Of a DNA stretch of 33,162 nucleotides, positions 13,202 to 18,793 are shown piece by piece. The DNA lies in the NCBI RefSeq assembly GCF_008042045.1, contig NZ_RDBP01000012.1, forward strand, positions 1,505,444-1,538,605, in the 5' to 3' direction. This DNA is from Streptomyces sp. T39. Lineage in GTDB: Bacteria > Actinomycetota > Actinomycetes > Streptomycetales > Streptomycetaceae. Position numbers and translations under genes: made by a program. The notes under the pieces were generated by a model, which saw only the letters and a list, made by a program, of their open reading frames with translations, ran no database searches and was not told where the DNA came from. How positions within the stretch are numbered: position 1 is the stretch's first letter; every line of letters begins with the position of its first letter.

Positions 13202-13678
13202 ATGAAGAAGTTCAGCGTTTCTCTGGGAGCAGCAGCGCTTTTCCTGTTCTCGGTGGGTGCAGGGCCGGCTGACGCCATCAGTGACAGTTCGAAGCGCTCC
13301 ATCGGCCGTGGAATCAGCCTGCAGGCGAACGCCTGGGAGTGCAATCTCTGGGCGAAGGCATGTGACTGGAAGACGTCGGCCAAGGTCTACAAGGGTTCGA
13401 AGCGCCAGAAGATGACCTGGGTCAAGAACGTCGCCCAGATCACGGGCCGGGGCGGATCCGTATCCATCGGCGGCAGTGGCACCGGTGTTACCGGCAGTGG
13501 GAGTGCCGGCACTCACTCGTTCGAGTGGACAAACAAGAACGCTTGGATGGCAGACCTCGCGGGGCAGGCGCGCTCCGGCTACCTGTCCATGGTCTGGGGC
13601 ATCGAGACCTGCTCCCATGCCTCGACCCATCACGAGTACCTGGGCGTCAAGGGGACCGCGTCCGCCTGCGCCGGCTGA
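13202..13678 (+). CDS. Small secreted protein with four cysteines, unknown function
   Basis: I do not recognise the family. Seen: 158 aa with a clear Sec signal peptide (MKKFSVSLGAAALFLFSVGAGPADA, likely cut after A25), leaving a mature domain of about 133 residues. Cysteines at 47, 54, 137 and 156 suggest two disulfides. The mature part is rich in Trp, Gly, Ser and Lys, with a Gly/Ser stretch at 82-103 (GRGGSVSIGGSGTGVTGSGS) and aromatic segments before and after it. Net basic character near the N-terminus. ATG 13202 has GGGGTGGA just upstream. It is the first gene of a tight same-strand run followed by a membrane-anchored protein, an ABC ATPase and a permease fragment. This order recalls bacteriocin loci of the lactococcin-972 type, but I see no sequence likeness to lactococcin 972 itself. 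Codon third positions are less GC-biased than in the flanking genes. Confidence 0.85.
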   Translation: MKKFSVSLGAAALFLFSVGAGPADAISDSSKRSIGRGISLQANAWECNLWAKACDWKTSAKVYKGSKRQKMTWVKNVAQITGRGGSVSIGGSGTGVTGSGSAGTHSFEWTNKNAWMADLAGQARSGYLSMVWGIETCSHASTHHEYLGVKGTASACAG

Positions 13679-13693
13679 GCGAACGGAACTGAC

Positions 13694-15412
13694 ATGAGCA
13701 GAGGTTCGAGGCCCCGTTCACGACTGATCGCGGTGGCCGTTGCGGGCGGGTTGGCCGCCTCCCTTTTCGGGCTGCGTCTCTTCGGGAACGTTCTCGACCT
13801 CTCGGGTGGCGACGACCACGAAGTTCCGCTTTCCGCGCAGCAGCGCAATCTCGTGCTTCAGATCGAAGATCTCCGGTCCGATGACGGTCTGTACACCGTT
13901 TCCATGGGTTCTGCCGCGAAACCGGGATTGTACGAATCGGCGCACGGGCTGACTGCATTGAAGGCCGCTGACGGAGAGGCGCCCTCTATCTCTCTGACCG
14001 TCGAATCCCTGCACAGAGCGTTCGCCGATGAAATGAGCGAGGAGCCATTCAGCTCGGCTGTATGGATTTCGCAGATTGAGGCGGCGACAGGCAAGAGGCT
14101 GCACAGGGAAGAAGACCGTCAAGCGCTGTTGCAGCGATTCTCCCCCCAGGGGTTCTTCCGCGATCCTGCGTCCGAATCCGACAGTTTGTCGACGCGGCTG
14201 AACGACACGTCCAGCGCTTTGGCCGGCCTGGCGCAGTTCGGTGTCGAATTGACGGCGCACCAACGCGCCGCCATCAGGCAGTGGCTGGCACAGGTCGGCA
14301 ACACTGCGCCACGGCGACCCGTCCAGCTCTACCACTTGGAGTACATCGCCGAGGCGATCGGTGTGGCCCCGCCGACGAATGTCGCCGAGGGGGCCAGGCA
14401 ATGGTGGCGCGCCGAGGGCCGGTTGTTGGACGCGTCCGCCGATGAGGAGGACACCATCGAAGCGGCGTACTACATCCTGCTCGCGAACCGCCTGGGCTGG
14501 GATCTGACTGAGCAAAGGCGCCATTGGGAGGCCGTTCTCTCTCCCGACGAGCCGGTGTCCACCGATACCCAGGTCAGTGCGCTCACCGCGAGGGCCTGGA
14601 CATCCCTGAAGGGGTCCGCCGAACGTCTTGATCCGCTGGTTCAGCGAATCAGTAAGCGTCGGCTCCCCACCGGCGTGGTGTCGTCGGTACAGGTACGTCA
14701 TGGCTCGCTGACATCCGCGTACGAGGTGGTCAGACTTCGCATGGTCGTCGGGCTGCCCATTGACGATCCCGAACTGCGGGCCGCACTCACCAAGATGAAA
14801 CCCACCGTCCTCGGTACGTACGATCCGCTGCTCCGCGGGGCATGGCTTTCGCTCATGGACAGTGTGGGTGGTCCGGTGTCGGCCCGGGAGCGTCGAAGGA
14901 TCGTTGCCGACGTCACGGCGGGTGCTCCACGAACCGTCGATGTGCGCAACGTCGACGTCTGGAACAGGTTCACCGACATCCTCGTCGGCCTGGACGAGGC
15001 GGTGCCGCACGCGGACGTGCGGAGTTGGGAACCTGACCGCCCCGAGTACCGCTATGCCCGAAGCCTTCTGATCAACAGCTTGCACCGCACCGGGCGCCTC
15101 GACGATTTCCCGGCCGTACGGCCTCGTCCGGCGGAGTTGGTCGCGGAGGCCGAGGAACGCCTGCAGGCAGGCACCGTGCGGGAAGGTGCCGAGGCACTGA
15201 GCGCAGCCAGCGCCCTCGGATGGACCCCCACGCACGAGGACGCTGAGCGCATCACCGCGCTGTTGGAGAAGCGGCGGGACTGTCCCGGGGCTTCGGCGTT
15301 CTACCGGGACAGTGCGAAGGACGACGAGTGCGGGGTACCGGGCACGCGGGCGGCCTACCGGATCAGCGCGTTGCTCGAAGGTGCCATGCCCGCGATCACC
15401 CGGACCCCGTGA
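13694..15412 (+). CDS. Membrane-anchored extracytoplasmic protein of 572 aa, unknown function
   Basis: I do not recognise the family. Seen: a basic N-terminus (RGSRPRSR) followed by one hydrophobic segment at about 11-31 (LIAVAVAGGLAASLFGLRLFG), then a long helical, soluble part predicted outside the membrane. Only two cysteines (C530, C546) occur, close together near the C-terminus, fitting one disulfide. Several stretches look like alpha-alpha toroid repeats, for example GLYTVSMGS..ESAHGLTALKA near 66-91, GFFRDPASESD..DTSSALAGLAQFG near 153-183 and QLYHLEYIAEAIG near 212-224. This is an eye judgement only. It starts 15 bp after the secreted protein and ends by overlapping the ABC region. 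Codon use includes many A/T-ending codons, unlike flanking genes, which suggests transfer. Plausible role: partner or immunity/processing factor for the secreted protein; this is inference. Confidence 0.85.
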   Translation: MSRGSRPRSRLIAVAVAGGLAASLFGLRLFGNVLDLSGGDDHEVPLSAQQRNLVLQIEDLRSDDGLYTVSMGSAAKPGLYESAHGLTALKAADGEAPSISLTVESLHRAFADEMSEEPFSSAVWISQIEAATGKRLHREEDRQALLQRFSPQGFFRDPASESDSLSTRLNDTSSALAGLAQFGVELTAHQRAAIRQWLAQVGNTAPRRPVQLYHLEYIAEAIGVAPPTNVAEGARQWWRAEGRLLDASADEEDTIEAAYYILLANRLGWDLTEQRRHWEAVLSPDEPVSTDTQVSALTARAWTSLKGSAERLDPLVQRISKRRLPTGVVSSVQVRHGSLTSAYEVVRLRMVVGLPIDDPELRAALTKMKPTVLGTYDPLLRGAWLSLMDSVGGPVSARERRRIVADVTAGAPRTVDVRNVDVWNRFTDILVGLDEAVPHADVRSWEPDRPEYRYARSLLINSLHRTGRLDDFPAVRPRPAELVAEAEERLQAGTVREGAEALSAASALGWTPTHEDAERITALLEKRRDCPGASAFYRDSAKDDECGVPGTRAAYRISALLEGAMPAITRTP

Positions 15413-15415
15413 GGA
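15411..15415 (+). promoter_or_regulatory. Ribosome binding site deciding the ABC ATPase start
   Basis: GAGGA, five bases before GTG 15421 and overlapping the stop of the preceding gene. The in-frame GTG 15409 has no such signal, so 15421 is preferred. Confidence 0.65.
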
Positions 15416-15420
15416 CGAGC

Positions 15421-16122
15421 GTGGAAGCCGTACTGAGAGCCCATCGGCTCTGCCTGACCCATCACGGCCCGAACGGGCCCGTCGCCGCCGTACGGGACGT
15501 GTCGCTCGGGGTCGCGGCCGGCGAGACGGTCGCGCTGGTCGGGCGGTCGGGCAGCGGGAAGACGAGTCTGCTCATGGCACTGGGCCTGCTGGCGACACCC
15601 GACGCGGGCACGGTGCTGGTCGAGGGCCGGGACACGGCAGGGCTGGGGGACGCCGAGCTGTCCGCGCTGCGCCGCGACCGGATCGGCTTCGTGTTCCAGG
15701 CGTTCAACCTGCTGCCCCAGTTCACCGCCGAGGAGAACGTCGCCATGGCCCATCGCTCCGGGCTGCGGGGCGGCGCCGAGCGGGCGGCGCGGCTGCTGGG
15801 CGACGTCGGGCTCGGACACCGGCTGCGGCACCGGCCGCACCAGCTGTCCGCCGGTGAGCAGCAGCGTGTCGCCATCGCGCGGGCGCTGGTCAACGAGCCC
15901 GCCGTCGTGCTCGCCGACGAACCGACCGGCAACCTGGACGCCGAGACCGAGTCGGACGTGCTCGACGTACTCACCCGGGGCGCGGCCGGCAGCGGCTGCG
16001 CCGTGCTGCTGGTGACCCACAGCGGCGACGTGGCCGCCCGCGCCGGCCGGGTGCTGCGCATGGCGGACGGAGTGTGCGCCGAGGACGCGGAGCGCACCGA
16101 GCCCCGGAGGGCCGCCACATGA
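15421..16122 (+). CDS. ABC transporter ATP-binding protein (LolD/MacB-type)
   Basis: Seen: 233 aa with every catalytic motif. Walker A is GRSGSGKTS at about 41-49, the Q-loop is in FVFQAFNLLPQF, and the signature is LSAGEQQRVAIARAL. Walker B with catalytic Glu is VVLADEPTGNLD, and the H-loop is LLVTHSGDVA. LPQFTAEENVAMA and the DEPTGNLD ending are typical of the FtsE/LolD/MacB class, which energises permeases moving peptides or lipoproteins rather than importing nutrients. The stop codon overlaps the permease start as ATGA, so the two are translationally coupled. Upstream are the secreted and anchored proteins, suggesting this pump exports or extracts one of them. Intact as seen; its partner permease is not. 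Confidence 0.93.
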   Translation: MEAVLRAHRLCLTHHGPNGPVAAVRDVSLGVAAGETVALVGRSGSGKTSLLMALGLLATPDAGTVLVEGRDTAGLGDAELSALRRDRIGFVFQAFNLLPQFTAEENVAMAHRSGLRGGAERAARLLGDVGLGHRLRHRPHQLSAGEQQRVAIARALVNEPAVVLADEPTGNLDAETESDVLDVLTRGAAGSGCAVLLVTHSGDVAARAGRVLRMADGVCAEDAERTEPRRAAT

Positions 16123-16804
16123 AACCGCTGCACCACGGACTGCTGAACGCACGCCGCTTCGCCCGGCGTTCGTCCGCCTCGGTACTGGCCCTCGCGCTGT
16201 GCGGCACGCTCTCGCTGGCCGCCGCCACCGTCGTCCGCGGTGCCGAGCGGGCTGCCGAGGCGACACTGTCCTCCGGGACGAGCCTCCAGCAGATCGATCT
16301 GGAGCCGCGCACCGACGACTCGGCGACCAAGCGGCTGACGCCGGCCACCCTCACCGCGGTGGCGGCTCTGTCCGGTGTCCGGTCCGTGGAACCGGTCGTG
16401 CAGGCGTCCTTCGACAGCGGGCCCGACGAGAGCCTGCCGCCGTTCCTGCTCCATGCGACCTCGGCACGTGTATCCGTGCCACCGCCGCTGCTGGAGCGGG
16501 TGCGGCCCGAGGTCTTCCCGCTGGAGGGCGACGAGGTCGTCCTCCCGGCCGTCGGCGACGGGCAGGACCTGTCCGGCCTGCTCGGCCGGACCGTGTCCGT
16601 CGGCTACGTCCAGCGCATCGGCGAGAACCGCGGCACCGGCGTCACCGATCGCATCACCGTCGTCGGGCTGTACGACCCGGCCTGGCAGATCGACGGGCCG
16701 AACGCCGCCTACGCGGCCACCCCGCTGGTGGCGAAGTGGGCCGCGGCGCGGGAAGGGGTGGGGGCCGAGCGGTTTCTGCAGACGCGGGGGTTCTCCAAGG
16801 CGAC
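16119..16804 (+). pseudogene. MacB/FtsX-type ABC permease, 5' part only
   Basis: Seen: about 229 codons from ATG 16119. A cytoplasmic start (KPLHHGLLNARRFARRSS) precedes transmembrane helix 1 at about 19-36 (ASVLALALCGTLSLAAAT), then a MacB-like extracytoplasmic domain to FLQTRGFSKATV near 16804. The usual C-terminal FtsX domain with three membrane helices is absent. The sequence that should follow is present in reverse orientation (next feature), and then the reading enters an unrelated thioredoxin-NHL gene. Its product could not form a working permease by itself. The ATGA overlap shows that it was the partner of the ABC ATPase. Confidence 0.8.
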
Positions 16805-18722
16805 GGTCGTGACGGCGGCCGCGACGACCAGCAGACCGAGCATGAGCAGCGCCCCCCACCGGAAGAGCTCCAGCAGCACCGGCAGCTCCCGCACCCGGTC
16901 GGCCACCGCGTACGCGTGGAAGCGCTGCTCGTGCAGGCGCTCCAGCACCTCGTCGACCGCCTCCGGCCCCGAGCTGATCGGCAAGGGCGGCTGGCTGAAC
17001 ACAGGGGGCAAGGAACTCACCCTCGCCGACCTGCGAGGACGGATCACGATCCTCGATTTCTGGACGTTCTGCTGCATCAACTGCCTGCACGTCCTCGACG
17101 AGCTCAGGGAGCTGGAGGAGAAGCACCGGGACACCGTCGTGATCATCGGTGTGCACTCGCCGAAGTTCGTGCACGAGGCGGAGCACGAGGCCGTCGTCGA
17201 CGCGGTCGAGCGCTACCAGGTGCACCACCCGGTGCTGGACGACCCCGAGCTCGCCACCTGGAAGCAGTACGCCGTGCGCGCCTGGCCGACGCTGGTCGTC
17301 ATCGACCCCGAGGGGTACGTCGTCGCCCAGCACGCGGGCGAGGGCCATGCGCACGCGATCGAGCGGCTCGTCGAGGAGCTGGAGGCCGAGCACGAGGCCA
17401 AGGGCACCCTGCGGCGCGGGGACGGCCCGTACGTGGCTCCGGAGCCGGCGGCGACCGATCTCCGTTTCCCCGGCAAGGCGCTCCGGCTGCCGACCGGGAA
17501 CTTCCTGGTGTCCGACTCGACCCGGCACGAGCTGGTCGAGCTGGCGGCGGACGGGGAGAGCGTGGTGCGGCGCATCGGCGGCGACGGCCGGTTCAACGAG
17601 CCGCAGGGCCTGGCGCTGCTGCCCGACGGCCGGGTGGCGGTCGCGGACACCGTGCACCACCAGCTGAAGGCGTACGACCCGCGGACCGGTGCGATCGAGC
17701 TGCTCGCGGGCACGGGCGAGCAGTGGTGGCAGGGTTCGCCGACGTCGGGCCCGGCCACCGAGGTCTCGCTGTCGTCGCCCTGGGACGTGGCCTGGTGGAA
17801 CGACCGGCTGTGGATCGCGATGGCGGGTGTGCACCAGCTGTGGACGTACGACCCCGAGGAGGGGACCGTCCAGGTCGCGGCCGGTACGACGAACGAGGGG
17901 CTGGTCGACGGACCGGCGGCCGAGGCGTGGTTCGCGCAGCCGTCCGGGCTCGCCGCGGCCGGTGAGCGGCTGTGGATCGCCGACTCCGAGACCAGCTCGG
18001 TGCGCTGGATCGACACCGAGGGTGTGGTGCGCACCGCTGTCGGCACCGGGCTGTTCGACTTCGGGCACCGCGACGGCGAGGCCGGGCAGGCCCTGCTCCA
18101 GCACCCGCTGGGCGTGACGGCGCTGCCCGACGGGTCGGTGGCGATCAGCGACACCTACAACCACGCGCTGCGGCGCTTCGATCCGGCGTCCGGGGAGGTC
18201 ACGACGCTCGCCACCGACCTGCGCGAGCCGAGCGGCGCGGTGCTGGACGGTGACGAGATCGTGGTCGTGGAGTCGGCGCGGCACCGGCTGACGCGGCTGA
18301 GGCTTCCGGAGGAGGCGGTGCGTGTGGAGGCGGTGGCGCACCGCACGCGGCGGGCGGCCACCGATGTGGGACCGGGCACGCTGCGGCTGGACGTGGTGTT
18401 CCAGGCGCCCGCCGGACAGAAGCTGGACACCCGGTACGGGCCGTCGACGCGGCTGCTGGTGTCGTCCACGCCGCCCGAGCTGCTGCGGTCGGGCGAGGGG
18501 GCGGGGACGGATCTGTCCCGGGAGCTGGAGATCGACCCGGAGGTGGCCGAGGGCGTGCTGCACGTCTCCGCGATGGCGGCGTCCTGCGACGACGACCCGG
18601 CGAACGAGTACCCGGCCTGCCATGTGCACCAGCAGGACTGGGGCGTCCCGGTCCGTGTGACGCCGGACGGCGCGGCCCGGCTGCCGCTGGTGCTGGCGGG
18701 GATGGACGAGCAGCAGGACTGA
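16119..18722 (+). CDS. Chimeric ORF: permease N-terminus fused to thioredoxin-like NHL-repeat protein
   Basis: Seen: 867 codons open without a stop, made of permease start, inverted permease piece, and from about 16969 a nearly whole NHL-repeat protein beginning PELIGKGGWLNTGGKELTL. The latter has a thioredoxin-like domain with FCCINC at about 17068-17085. It then has NHL/beta-propeller blades to about 18300 (FNEPQGLALLPDGRVAVADT, FAQPSGLAAAGERLWIADS, LLQHPLGVTALPDGSVAISD) and a small C-terminal beta domain. Homologues known to me are separate cytoplasmic proteins whose N-terminus extends only some 10-20 residues before PELIGKGG, so just its start codon and promoter are lost. If translated as one chain, the thioredoxin-NHL part would be placed outside the cell behind the permease helix. 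More likely this is a rearrangement scar or an assembly join. Function of the NHL protein is unknown, perhaps thiol redox. Confidence 0.8.
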   Translation: MKPLHHGLLNARRFARRSSASVLALALCGTLSLAAATVVRGAERAAEATLSSGTSLQQIDLEPRTDDSATKRLTPATLTAVAALSGVRSVEPVVQASFDSGPDESLPPFLLHATSARVSVPPPLLERVRPEVFPLEGDEVVLPAVGDGQDLSGLLGRTVSVGYVQRIGENRGTGVTDRITVVGLYDPAWQIDGPNAAYAATPLVAKWAAAREGVGAERFLQTRGFSKATVVTAAATTSRPSMSSAPHRKSSSSTGSSRTRSATAYAWKRCSCRRSSTSSTASGPELIGKGGWLNTGGKELTLADLRGRITILDFWTFCCINCLHVLDELRELEEKHRDTVVIIGVHSPKFVHEAEHEAVVDAVERYQVHHPVLDDPELATWKQYAVRAWPTLVVIDPEGYVVAQHAGEGHAHAIERLVEELEAEHEAKGTLRRGDGPYVAPEPAATDLRFPGKALRLPTGNFLVSDSTRHELVELAADGESVVRRIGGDGRFNEPQGLALLPDGRVAVADTVHHQLKAYDPRTGAIELLAGTGEQWWQGSPTSGPATEVSLSSPWDVAWWNDRLWIAMAGVHQLWTYDPEEGTVQVAAGTTNEGLVDGPAAEAWFAQPSGLAAAGERLWIADSETSSVRWIDTEGVVRTAVGTGLFDFGHRDGEAGQALLQHPLGVTALPDGSVAISDTYNHALRRFDPASGEVTTLATDLREPSGAVLDGDEIVVVESARHRLTRLRLPEEAVRVEAVAHRTRRAATDVGPGTLRLDVVFQAPAGQKLDTRYGPSTRLLVSSTPPELLRSGEGAGTDLSRELEIDPEVAEGVLHVSAMAASCDDDPANEYPACHVHQQDWGVPVRVTPDGAARLPLVLAGMDEQQD
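16805..16968 (-). other. Inverted fragment of the permease gene
   Basis: Seen on the minus strand: GPEAVDEVLERLHEQRFHAY, then AVADRVRELPVLLELFRWG, then ALLMLGLLVVAAAVTT. These codons almost all end in G or C, and the result is exactly the segment plus membrane helix expected after FSKATV in a MacB-type permease. On the plus strand the same bases give a Ser/Arg-rich, AGA-containing shadow. So about 160 bp has been flipped in place. The left junction falls at or near a short inverted repeat, GGTCGT (16805-16810) and ACGACC (16824-16829). The right junction falls within about ten bases of 16968. Boundaries are by eye. Confidence 0.75.
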
Positions 18723-18747: not shown

Positions 18748-18793
18748 CGACACGGCGGCGCCCCCGGAGGGATCCGGGGGCGCCGCCGTGTCG
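18748..18793. terminator. Very long perfect terminator hairpin
   Basis: A 21-bp perfect stem (18748-18768 with 18773-18793) around a GGGA loop, core GGCGGCGCCCCCGGA. It sits between the NHL gene and the convergent small gene ending at 18805, so it can terminate both. Confidence 0.85.

Follow-up and report, generated by a model that had tools for sequence, protein, structure and literature searches.

A probable repair scar joins an inverted segment of an ABC permease and a thioredoxin-NHL gene in a single frame of a Streptomyces genome

Results

Gene content and layout of the locus

The window, that is, the whole stretch of DNA analysed, comprises 33,162 nt of the forward strand of Streptomyces sp. 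T39 (assembly GCF_008042045.1, contig NZ_RDBP01000012.1, positions 1,505,444 to 1,538,605). It holds a pump cassette whose permease gene runs into a gene for a thioredoxin-NHL protein. The features of the locus are as follows.

13202..13678, plus strand: small, likely secreted cassette protein, 158 residues from this start, at the same position in genome G377
13694..15412, plus strand: 572-residue cassette protein of no known family
15421..16122, plus strand: intact ABC transporter ATPase of the LolD/MacB/FtsE type (Pfam ABC_tran; NCBIfam LolD and others below their cut-offs)
16106..16111, plus strand: GGAGGG, 7 bases upstream of the ATG at 16119 and likely the ribosome-binding site for the fusion frame (from the sequence)
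16119..16814, plus strand: permease codons 1-232, upright, 204 of 232 residues as in the homologue P0003 (tblastn)
16808..16814: left junction CGTGACG, fitting both the upright and the inverted permease pieces (codon comparison; ancestral DNA not seen)
16808..16972, minus strand: permease codons 233-287, inverted, 52 of 55 residues as in P0003
16967..16972: right junction CCCCGA, compatible with the inverted permease piece as well as with the NHL gene (codon comparison with the NHL DNA of relatives)
16968..18722, plus strand: thioredoxin-NHL gene from codon 22 to the stop, 96% identity to residues 22-603 of P0016

The stop codon of the ATPase gene overlaps the start of the fusion frame. A search with the small cassette protein gave 10 relatives at E<=0.001, among them P0134, which is the entry of the window itself, and a Pfam domain was found in none of them. 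A lactococcin-972-like role for the cassette found no support: the small protein has no family match and the ATPase scores below the TIGR03608 cut-off. A scan for sigma-70 promoters found none, and a terminator scan returned one terminator-like site, scoring below the shuffle mean.

Three gene pieces in one open frame

Translation confirms that positions 16119-18722 of the plus strand form a single open frame of 867 codons, as the first-pass annotation had described. Its parts follow in the order of upright permease codons 1-232, inverted codons 233-287 and the thioredoxin-NHL sequence from about codon 22. In tblastn searches, residues 1-233 of the intact, 406-residue P0003 matched plus 16119-16817 (88% identity, E 6e-129), and residues 231-287 matched minus 16978-16808 (91%, E 7e-27). 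The 605-residue thioredoxin-NHL protein P0016 matched from residue 22 onwards at 16968-18713 (96%). By sequence comparison, then, the flipped piece is the very next segment of the permease, far beyond chance, which bears out the earlier reading of some 160 bp of minus-strand permease coding; the reversed segment agrees with the permease homologue at the 52 of 55 residues given above. The two-part layout of the permease thus stands, with its boundaries refined: the upright piece extends to about 16814 rather than about 16804, and the flipped piece spans 16808-16972. The NHL protein is, as proposed, nearly whole and without its start, the first 21 codons being absent from the locus.

The near end of the flipped piece meets the left breakpoint to within about one codon. 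Codon reasoning gives each junction an overlap of 6-7 bp that fits both partners. When CCCCGA was compared with the NHL DNA of four relatives, two fitted (G377 and G159) and two were one base off (G309 and G106); CGTGACG is less frequent in the window than expected (7 occurrences against 16.5). Two loci, L009 and L012, were set aside from the breakpoint codon comparison, their matches lying apparently on the minus strand. Nothing could be learned from the DNA of more distant relatives at the breakpoints.

Loss of the FtsX core

In the upright permease piece lie a single hydrophobic segment, at residues 21-39, and the greater part of the domain that follows it; the inverted piece contains the beginning of the second hydrophobic segment of the permease. 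By simple hydropathy the fusion has that one segment, whereas P0003 has further ones from residue 273 on. The FtsX domain (PF02687), found by Pfam at residues 275-399 of P0003, is absent from the fusion. Permease codons 288-406, which make up most of this domain, are missing at the locus, and a search of the strain's own assembly with them returned paralogues only (best 34%, E 8.6e-8). Relocation of the permease 3' part elsewhere in the genome was accordingly rejected. With codons 233-287 flipped beside the left breakpoint and codons 288-406 not found elsewhere in the assembly, the in-place inversion plus deletion put forward by the first-pass annotation is supported. Since the FtsX core is lost, the ABC exporter would be dead, and the pump has likely been lost. 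The hprt gene follows the cassette in G377 and was considered as part of the deleted DNA, yet it lies intact about 45 kb away in this strain.

Relatives on either side of the fusion

Among the 11 permease-side matches listed, nine relatives have 406 residues and one has 407. In a sample of 392 genomes of the genus, the permease relatives are upright, stop-free and reach residue 401 or beyond in 21 of the 21 other genomes with a match. The NHL relatives have 590-621 residues among the 120 of 7997 matches listed. The 867-codon architecture appears in none of these 120 NHL-side matches and in none of the 11 permease-side ones. An ancient, inherited fusion family that never underwent inversion would agree with a frame that is open throughout, but the relatives are upright and, among those listed, unfused, and the minus strand of the flipped piece still codes for the permease, with 52 of 55 residues kept. 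We therefore consider this origin next to impossible and rejected it.

The same four-gene cassette is present in G377, where it comes after a LURP-one-related gene, and in G279 the NHL gene adjoins the LURP-one-related gene. This synteny suggests that the cassette once lay beside the NHL gene and, hence, that the event was local. An intact cassette directly adjoining the NHL gene was found in none of the genomes examined, and overlapping draws of 392 genus, 394 family, 362 genus and 391 order genomes yielded no close sister with DNA. Direct adjacency of cassette and NHL gene, the ancestral spacing and the microhomology are thus what we infer. A scan of genome contigs for relatives gave one, at 37% identity, and a search of viral contigs did not find the junction 30-mer.

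Junction repeat, open frame and absence of decay

Two observations of the first-pass annotation proved unremarkable. The inverted repeat GGTCGT..ACGACC at the left junction folds no better than shuffled sequence (z 0.39; in 128 of 200 shuffles the fold is as good or better), and a special role for it was discarded. Likewise, when inversion-plus-deletion events between the G377 permease and NHL genes were simulated, 24% of 19687 stayed open to the NHL stop, so the open frame was rejected as a sign of function.

The first of these results also bears on whether the permease segment is a programmed phase switch caught in its off orientation. An exact in-place inversion inside the gene of a surface-exposed pump would suit such a switch, but the junction repeat is not significant and of 629 inverted pairs, the 25 longest include none that flanks the segment. 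Moreover, flipping the segment back could not restore the permease, because the sequence beyond it is also deleted. A phase switch is, in our view, extremely improbable.

None of 107 invariant permease positions deviates, and neither retained gene part shows decay. The event is therefore either recent or an assembly artefact. In the latter case, a chimeric molecule from the library or assembly, with a fold-back inversion and a deletion, would have entered the consensus, and the strain would have an intact permease and a separate NHL gene. A misjoin would indeed leave both retained parts undecayed, and the sequence is a draft assembly of 292 contigs. Furthermore, of the 475 chimeras in one amplification study, 406 were inverted joins, most of which had an intervening deletion (PMC1855051, in the part available). 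Those chimeras, however, arise from phi29 amplification, and there is no sign of phi29 use here. The window also lies within a contig of about 3.6 Mb and contains zero N, the missing part of the permease is on no other contig, and the chimera would have had to win the consensus at each of two junctions some 160 bp from one another. On balance, an artefact is rather unlikely.

Discussion

The data partly support the rearrangement first proposed for this locus. We consider that the frame is probably the scar of a recent DNA-break repair, in which permease codons 233-287 were flipped in place, permease codons 288-406 and NHL codons 1-21 went missing, and the leftovers came to form one frame. The pump cassette and the NHL gene would have been neighbours before the event. 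End joining at short stretches of shared sequence may then have repaired a break at about permease codon 232/233. The 55-codon fragment could have been rejoined backwards; alternatively, the broken left end could have paired with sequence near codon 287 and been extended by copying back as far as the break, where the template stopped. In the copy-back option, the flipped piece would end at the breakpoint because the copied template ended there. The new end would then have been attached to NHL codon 22.

Ku is encoded in the strain's own genome, with three matches above the cut-off, of which one is partial. In Streptomyces ambofaciens, half of the break-repair scars show 1-6 nt of microhomology; the scars have deletions of 191-23591 bp and short inserts of local origin, 30-83 bp long (PMC5869714, as far as available). 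The scar described here resembles them in its local deletion, locally derived short insert and the presence of Ku in the genome, and probably in short shared letters at the junctions, as codon reasoning suggests. It differs in being natural and inferred, in its longer insert (about 160 bp) and in the in-frame fusion of two genes. Our insert is inverted, and the orientation of the published ones is not stated in the available part of that article. An inverted piece beside the break also recalls the fold-back inversions of yeast (PMC7467729, in the part available); unlike those, this one is in a bacterium, and codons 233-287 are present only inverted, with no duplicated upright copy.

If the repair took place as we propose, the genome's only full-length thioredoxin-NHL gene would now depend on the pump operon. 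Unless translation begins at an internal start, for example the ATG at 16842, its product would be anchored in the membrane and would have its thioredoxin-NHL part on the outside. Export of this part on a permease helix is possible, as judged from the one predicted hydrophobic segment and the retained ribosome-binding site. Within a real event, we give only a slim chance to a working gene, kept by selection, that displays the thioredoxin-NHL part outside on the permease's first helix. The open frame with its retained ribosome-binding site, the single hydrophobic segment at 21-39 (hydropathy), the conserved NHL block beginning right at the junction and the status of sole full-length copy all fit such a gene, and SOQ1 offers a precedent for a membrane-anchored thioredoxin-NHL protein (PMC6107167, in the part available). 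Against it, 24% of random events stay open, an event this recent is uninformative about selection, the permease part is a truncated domain, and bacterial relatives such as P0016 have no hydrophobic segment.

In domain order the fusion resembles NHLRC2 and SOQ1 (PDB 6gc1 and 7djj). A thioredoxin-like domain and NHL repeats lie in one chain, both above the Pfam cut-off and with matches to these two structures. The CCINC motif, as named in the available part of PMC6107167, stands at frame residues 318-322, ahead of the NHL propeller, and SOQ1 too has a membrane helix in front. In contrast to SOQ1, the predicted helix derives from an ABC permease and is separated from the thioredoxin-NHL part by about 190 more residues of the permease and about 50 antisense-coded ones, and Pfam gave no match to an N-terminal HAD phosphatase domain. 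Two structure models of the fusion show a confident NHL propeller, with low confidence over residues 1-445, the thioredoxin part included. Any resemblance to the SOQ1 topology would be due to chance and not to descent. Relative to P0003, an FtsX-like ABC permease of 406 residues, the frame keeps residues 1-232 at 88% identity, and the FtsX region 275-399 is lost or inverted. Relative to P0016, annotated as an NHL domain-containing thioredoxin family protein of Streptomyces, residues 22-603 are 96% identical. Unlike P0016, the gene has lost its own start, its first 21 codons and its upstream region, and has gained 283 foreign residues in front.

Whether or not the product works, the locus is a clean case of a small complex rearrangement that combines inversion with deletion in a Streptomyces and has not yet decayed. 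Its inverted insert is of local origin and comparable to the inserts that follow induced breaks. For high-GC genomes it carries the warning that a long open frame is no sign of a functional fusion gene. If real, the event is a knock-out, arisen in nature, of a conserved four-gene pump cassette; it may also have relocated, again naturally, a thioredoxin-NHL protein that is widespread in bacteria and, to our knowledge, without a settled function. It is improbable that one repair event produced a working, outward-facing anchored protein and so re-invented, in a bacterium, the layout of plant SOQ1; if it did, the only full-length thioredoxin-NHL protein of this strain would have moved from the cytoplasm to the cell surface and come under the control of a transporter operon.

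Results

The plus strand from 16119 to 18722 runs through 867 codons without a stop, open throughout as the first-pass annotation had stated, and homology divides it into three pieces:

16119 on, plus strand: permease front, residues 1-232 of an FtsX-like ABC permease (204/232 identical to P0003)
16808-16972, minus strand: flipped permease piece, residues 233-287 in codon terms (52/55 identical to P0003)
16968 on, plus strand: thioredoxin-NHL protein from residue 22 (96% to P0016)

P0003 is an intact 406-residue homologue (database name: ABC transporter permease, Streptomyces zhihengii). In tblastn, its residues 1-233 matched plus strand 16119-16817 (88% identity) and its residues 231-287 matched minus strand 16978-16808 (91%, E 7e-27), which bears out the proposal that the minus strand encodes the next permease segment. 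Residues 22 to 603 of P0016, a 605-residue thioredoxin-NHL homologue, matched from 16968 onward (96%); this protein was rightly described as nearly whole without its start. The original observation is confirmed and was largely read correctly, and the event is of a known kind.

The FtsX domain of P0003 spans residues 275-399, and none was detected in the fusion frame. When permease residues 288-406 were searched against the whole T39 assembly (8.27 Mb, 292 contigs), this 119-residue query gave 11 matches at E<=10, all of them distant (the best at 34%, E 8.6e-8), in line with the proposed deletion of the permease 3' part. NHL codons 1-21 are also missing. The deletion covers at least ~420 bp (119 permease codons, the stop and 21 NHL codons), plus a spacer. 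Among the 120 listed NHL relatives, 112 carry 9-23 residues before the PELIG motif, the other 8 lacking the exact motif, and fully invariant columns begin at the junction, P284, in an alignment of 26 sequences. Hence, the folded portion of the NHL protein has probably been retained in full.

The permease-side protein search returned 11 matches: nine of 406 residues, one of 407 and one 205-residue fragment. The latter (P0010, S. zhihengii) joins a frame-shifted ATPase end to a permease front with an early stop, and appears to reflect a sequencing indel, not a second fusion. On the NHL side, the best 120 of 7997 matches are all of 590-621 residues; no fusion is among them, nor is the window's own 867-residue protein. 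P0134, the small cassette protein of the window, is present in the same database, so the public gene call at 16119-18722 may differ from the fusion frame. A permease relative at E<=1e-20 occurs in 22 of 392 genus genomes, a sample, since the draws take one genome per species and overlap. In all 21 besides T39, the match is unbroken, stop-free and extends to residue 401 or further, that of G311 beginning only at residue 143. Draws from the family, from the genus a second time and from the order, run with stricter cut-offs, brought in no permease relative closer than these. A fusion architecture shared by homologues, the alternative raised at first pass, was seen neither among the listed protein matches nor in these 21 genomes. 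An in-frame TGA lies inside the NHL match of another genome, G309 (L039, G309:C10:198275-200098).

The window reads nitrilase-like gene, LURP-one-related gene (minus), small likely secreted protein, 572-residue protein, ABC ATPase, broken permease, NHL, DUF3303-like gene (assigned on a match below cut-off) and M18 aminopeptidase. The four-gene cassette at 13202-16122 (the small protein, the 572-residue protein, a LolD/MacB-type ATPase and, where intact, a 406-residue FtsX-like permease) recurs in the other Streptomyces genomes G377, G106 and G159, and more weakly in G119; its first two proteins match neither a Pfam nor an NCBIfam family. In G377, the cassette includes an intact permease and accompanies nitrilase-like and LURP genes; the NHL gene of that genome adjoins M18 ~193 kb away. 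In G279, NHL adjoins LURP without the cassette. The 18-kb regions retrieved from G106 and G159 contain the cassette but neither a nitrilase-like nor a LURP gene. Most simply, the cassette would once have stood between LURP and NHL in T39, and one local event would have broken its end; we infer this order, as no genome examined shows it intact. In the G377 lineage, a separate event seems to have disrupted the cassette/NHL boundary. In the two G377 loci compared (L032, G377:C2:114500-132500; L043, G377:C2:312000-328000), hprt and dcd-like genes come after the cassette and NHL lies at the ~193 kb distance given above; in T39, hprt is found ~45 kb further on from NHL. The NHL stop and the convergent gene that follows it are separated by an inverted repeat (18748-18793) whose two perfectly matched 21-bp arms enclose a loop of 4 bases, probably a two-way terminator.

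Discussion

At its near end, the flipped piece lies no more than about one codon from the upright permease part, which is what a single break producing both ends would give. By codon comparison, the letters of CGTGACG (16808-16814) and CCCCGA (16967-16972) fit both their neighbours, pointing to possible microhomology of at most 7 (left) and 6 (right) bases. In the DNA of four relatives, the NHL side reads GCCCCCGAG in G377 and G159, fitting the overlap, and differs from it by one base each in G309 (GCTCCCGAG) and G106 (GCCCCTGAG). After a single break, the flipped fragment would either have been religated in reverse orientation or have arisen by back-copying from a primed fold-back. The T39 assembly holds three Ku matches over cut-off, one partial. 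In the induced-break repair described for S. ambofaciens, deletions span 191-23591 bp, half of the scars show microhomologies of 1-6 nt, and three clones carry short inserts, of which two, 42 and 83 bp long, derive from nearby sequence (PMC5869714). By analogy, the scar in the window would be of the same kind, with an insert that is longer, and inverted.

Neither retained gene part shows decay: none of 107 positions invariant in seven permease homologues deviates in the upright part, and the letters at the 4 of 376 deviating NHL positions correspond to the replaced stretch just before P284, which leaves 0 in the retained part. Judged by these alignments, the event is either recent or not real. 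An assembly or amplification artefact would leave both parts equally intact; the analysis covered the consensus sequence of a draft assembly, and inverted joins are described as the main kind of amplification chimera (406/475; PMC1855051). However, the missing permease part was not found elsewhere in the assembly, and the window has no N and sits inside a ~3.6 Mb contig. We regard an artefact as unlikely, and a genuine rearrangement as the better reading.

With the FtsX core gone, we infer that the pump cannot work. GGAGGG is kept seven bases upstream of the fusion start codon, which overlaps the ATPase stop; translation of the fusion is therefore probable, provided that the operon itself is translated. 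An internal in-frame ATG (16842) has no good ribosome-binding site by eye. Simulated events were in frame in 33% of cases and open to the end in 24%; the open frame is thus no evidence of function. Structure models were uninformative for the permease and thioredoxin parts. A single hydrophobic segment (21-39) is present in the fusion, against none in P0016. If the fusion inserts like its parent permease, with the N-terminus inside as in FtsX-like permeases, the thioredoxin-NHL part would lie outside. As T39 yields a single NHL match at E<=1e-100, the fusion holds the only full-length NHL copy in the assembly. The finding is of modest interest unless the relocated NHL protein proves to work.
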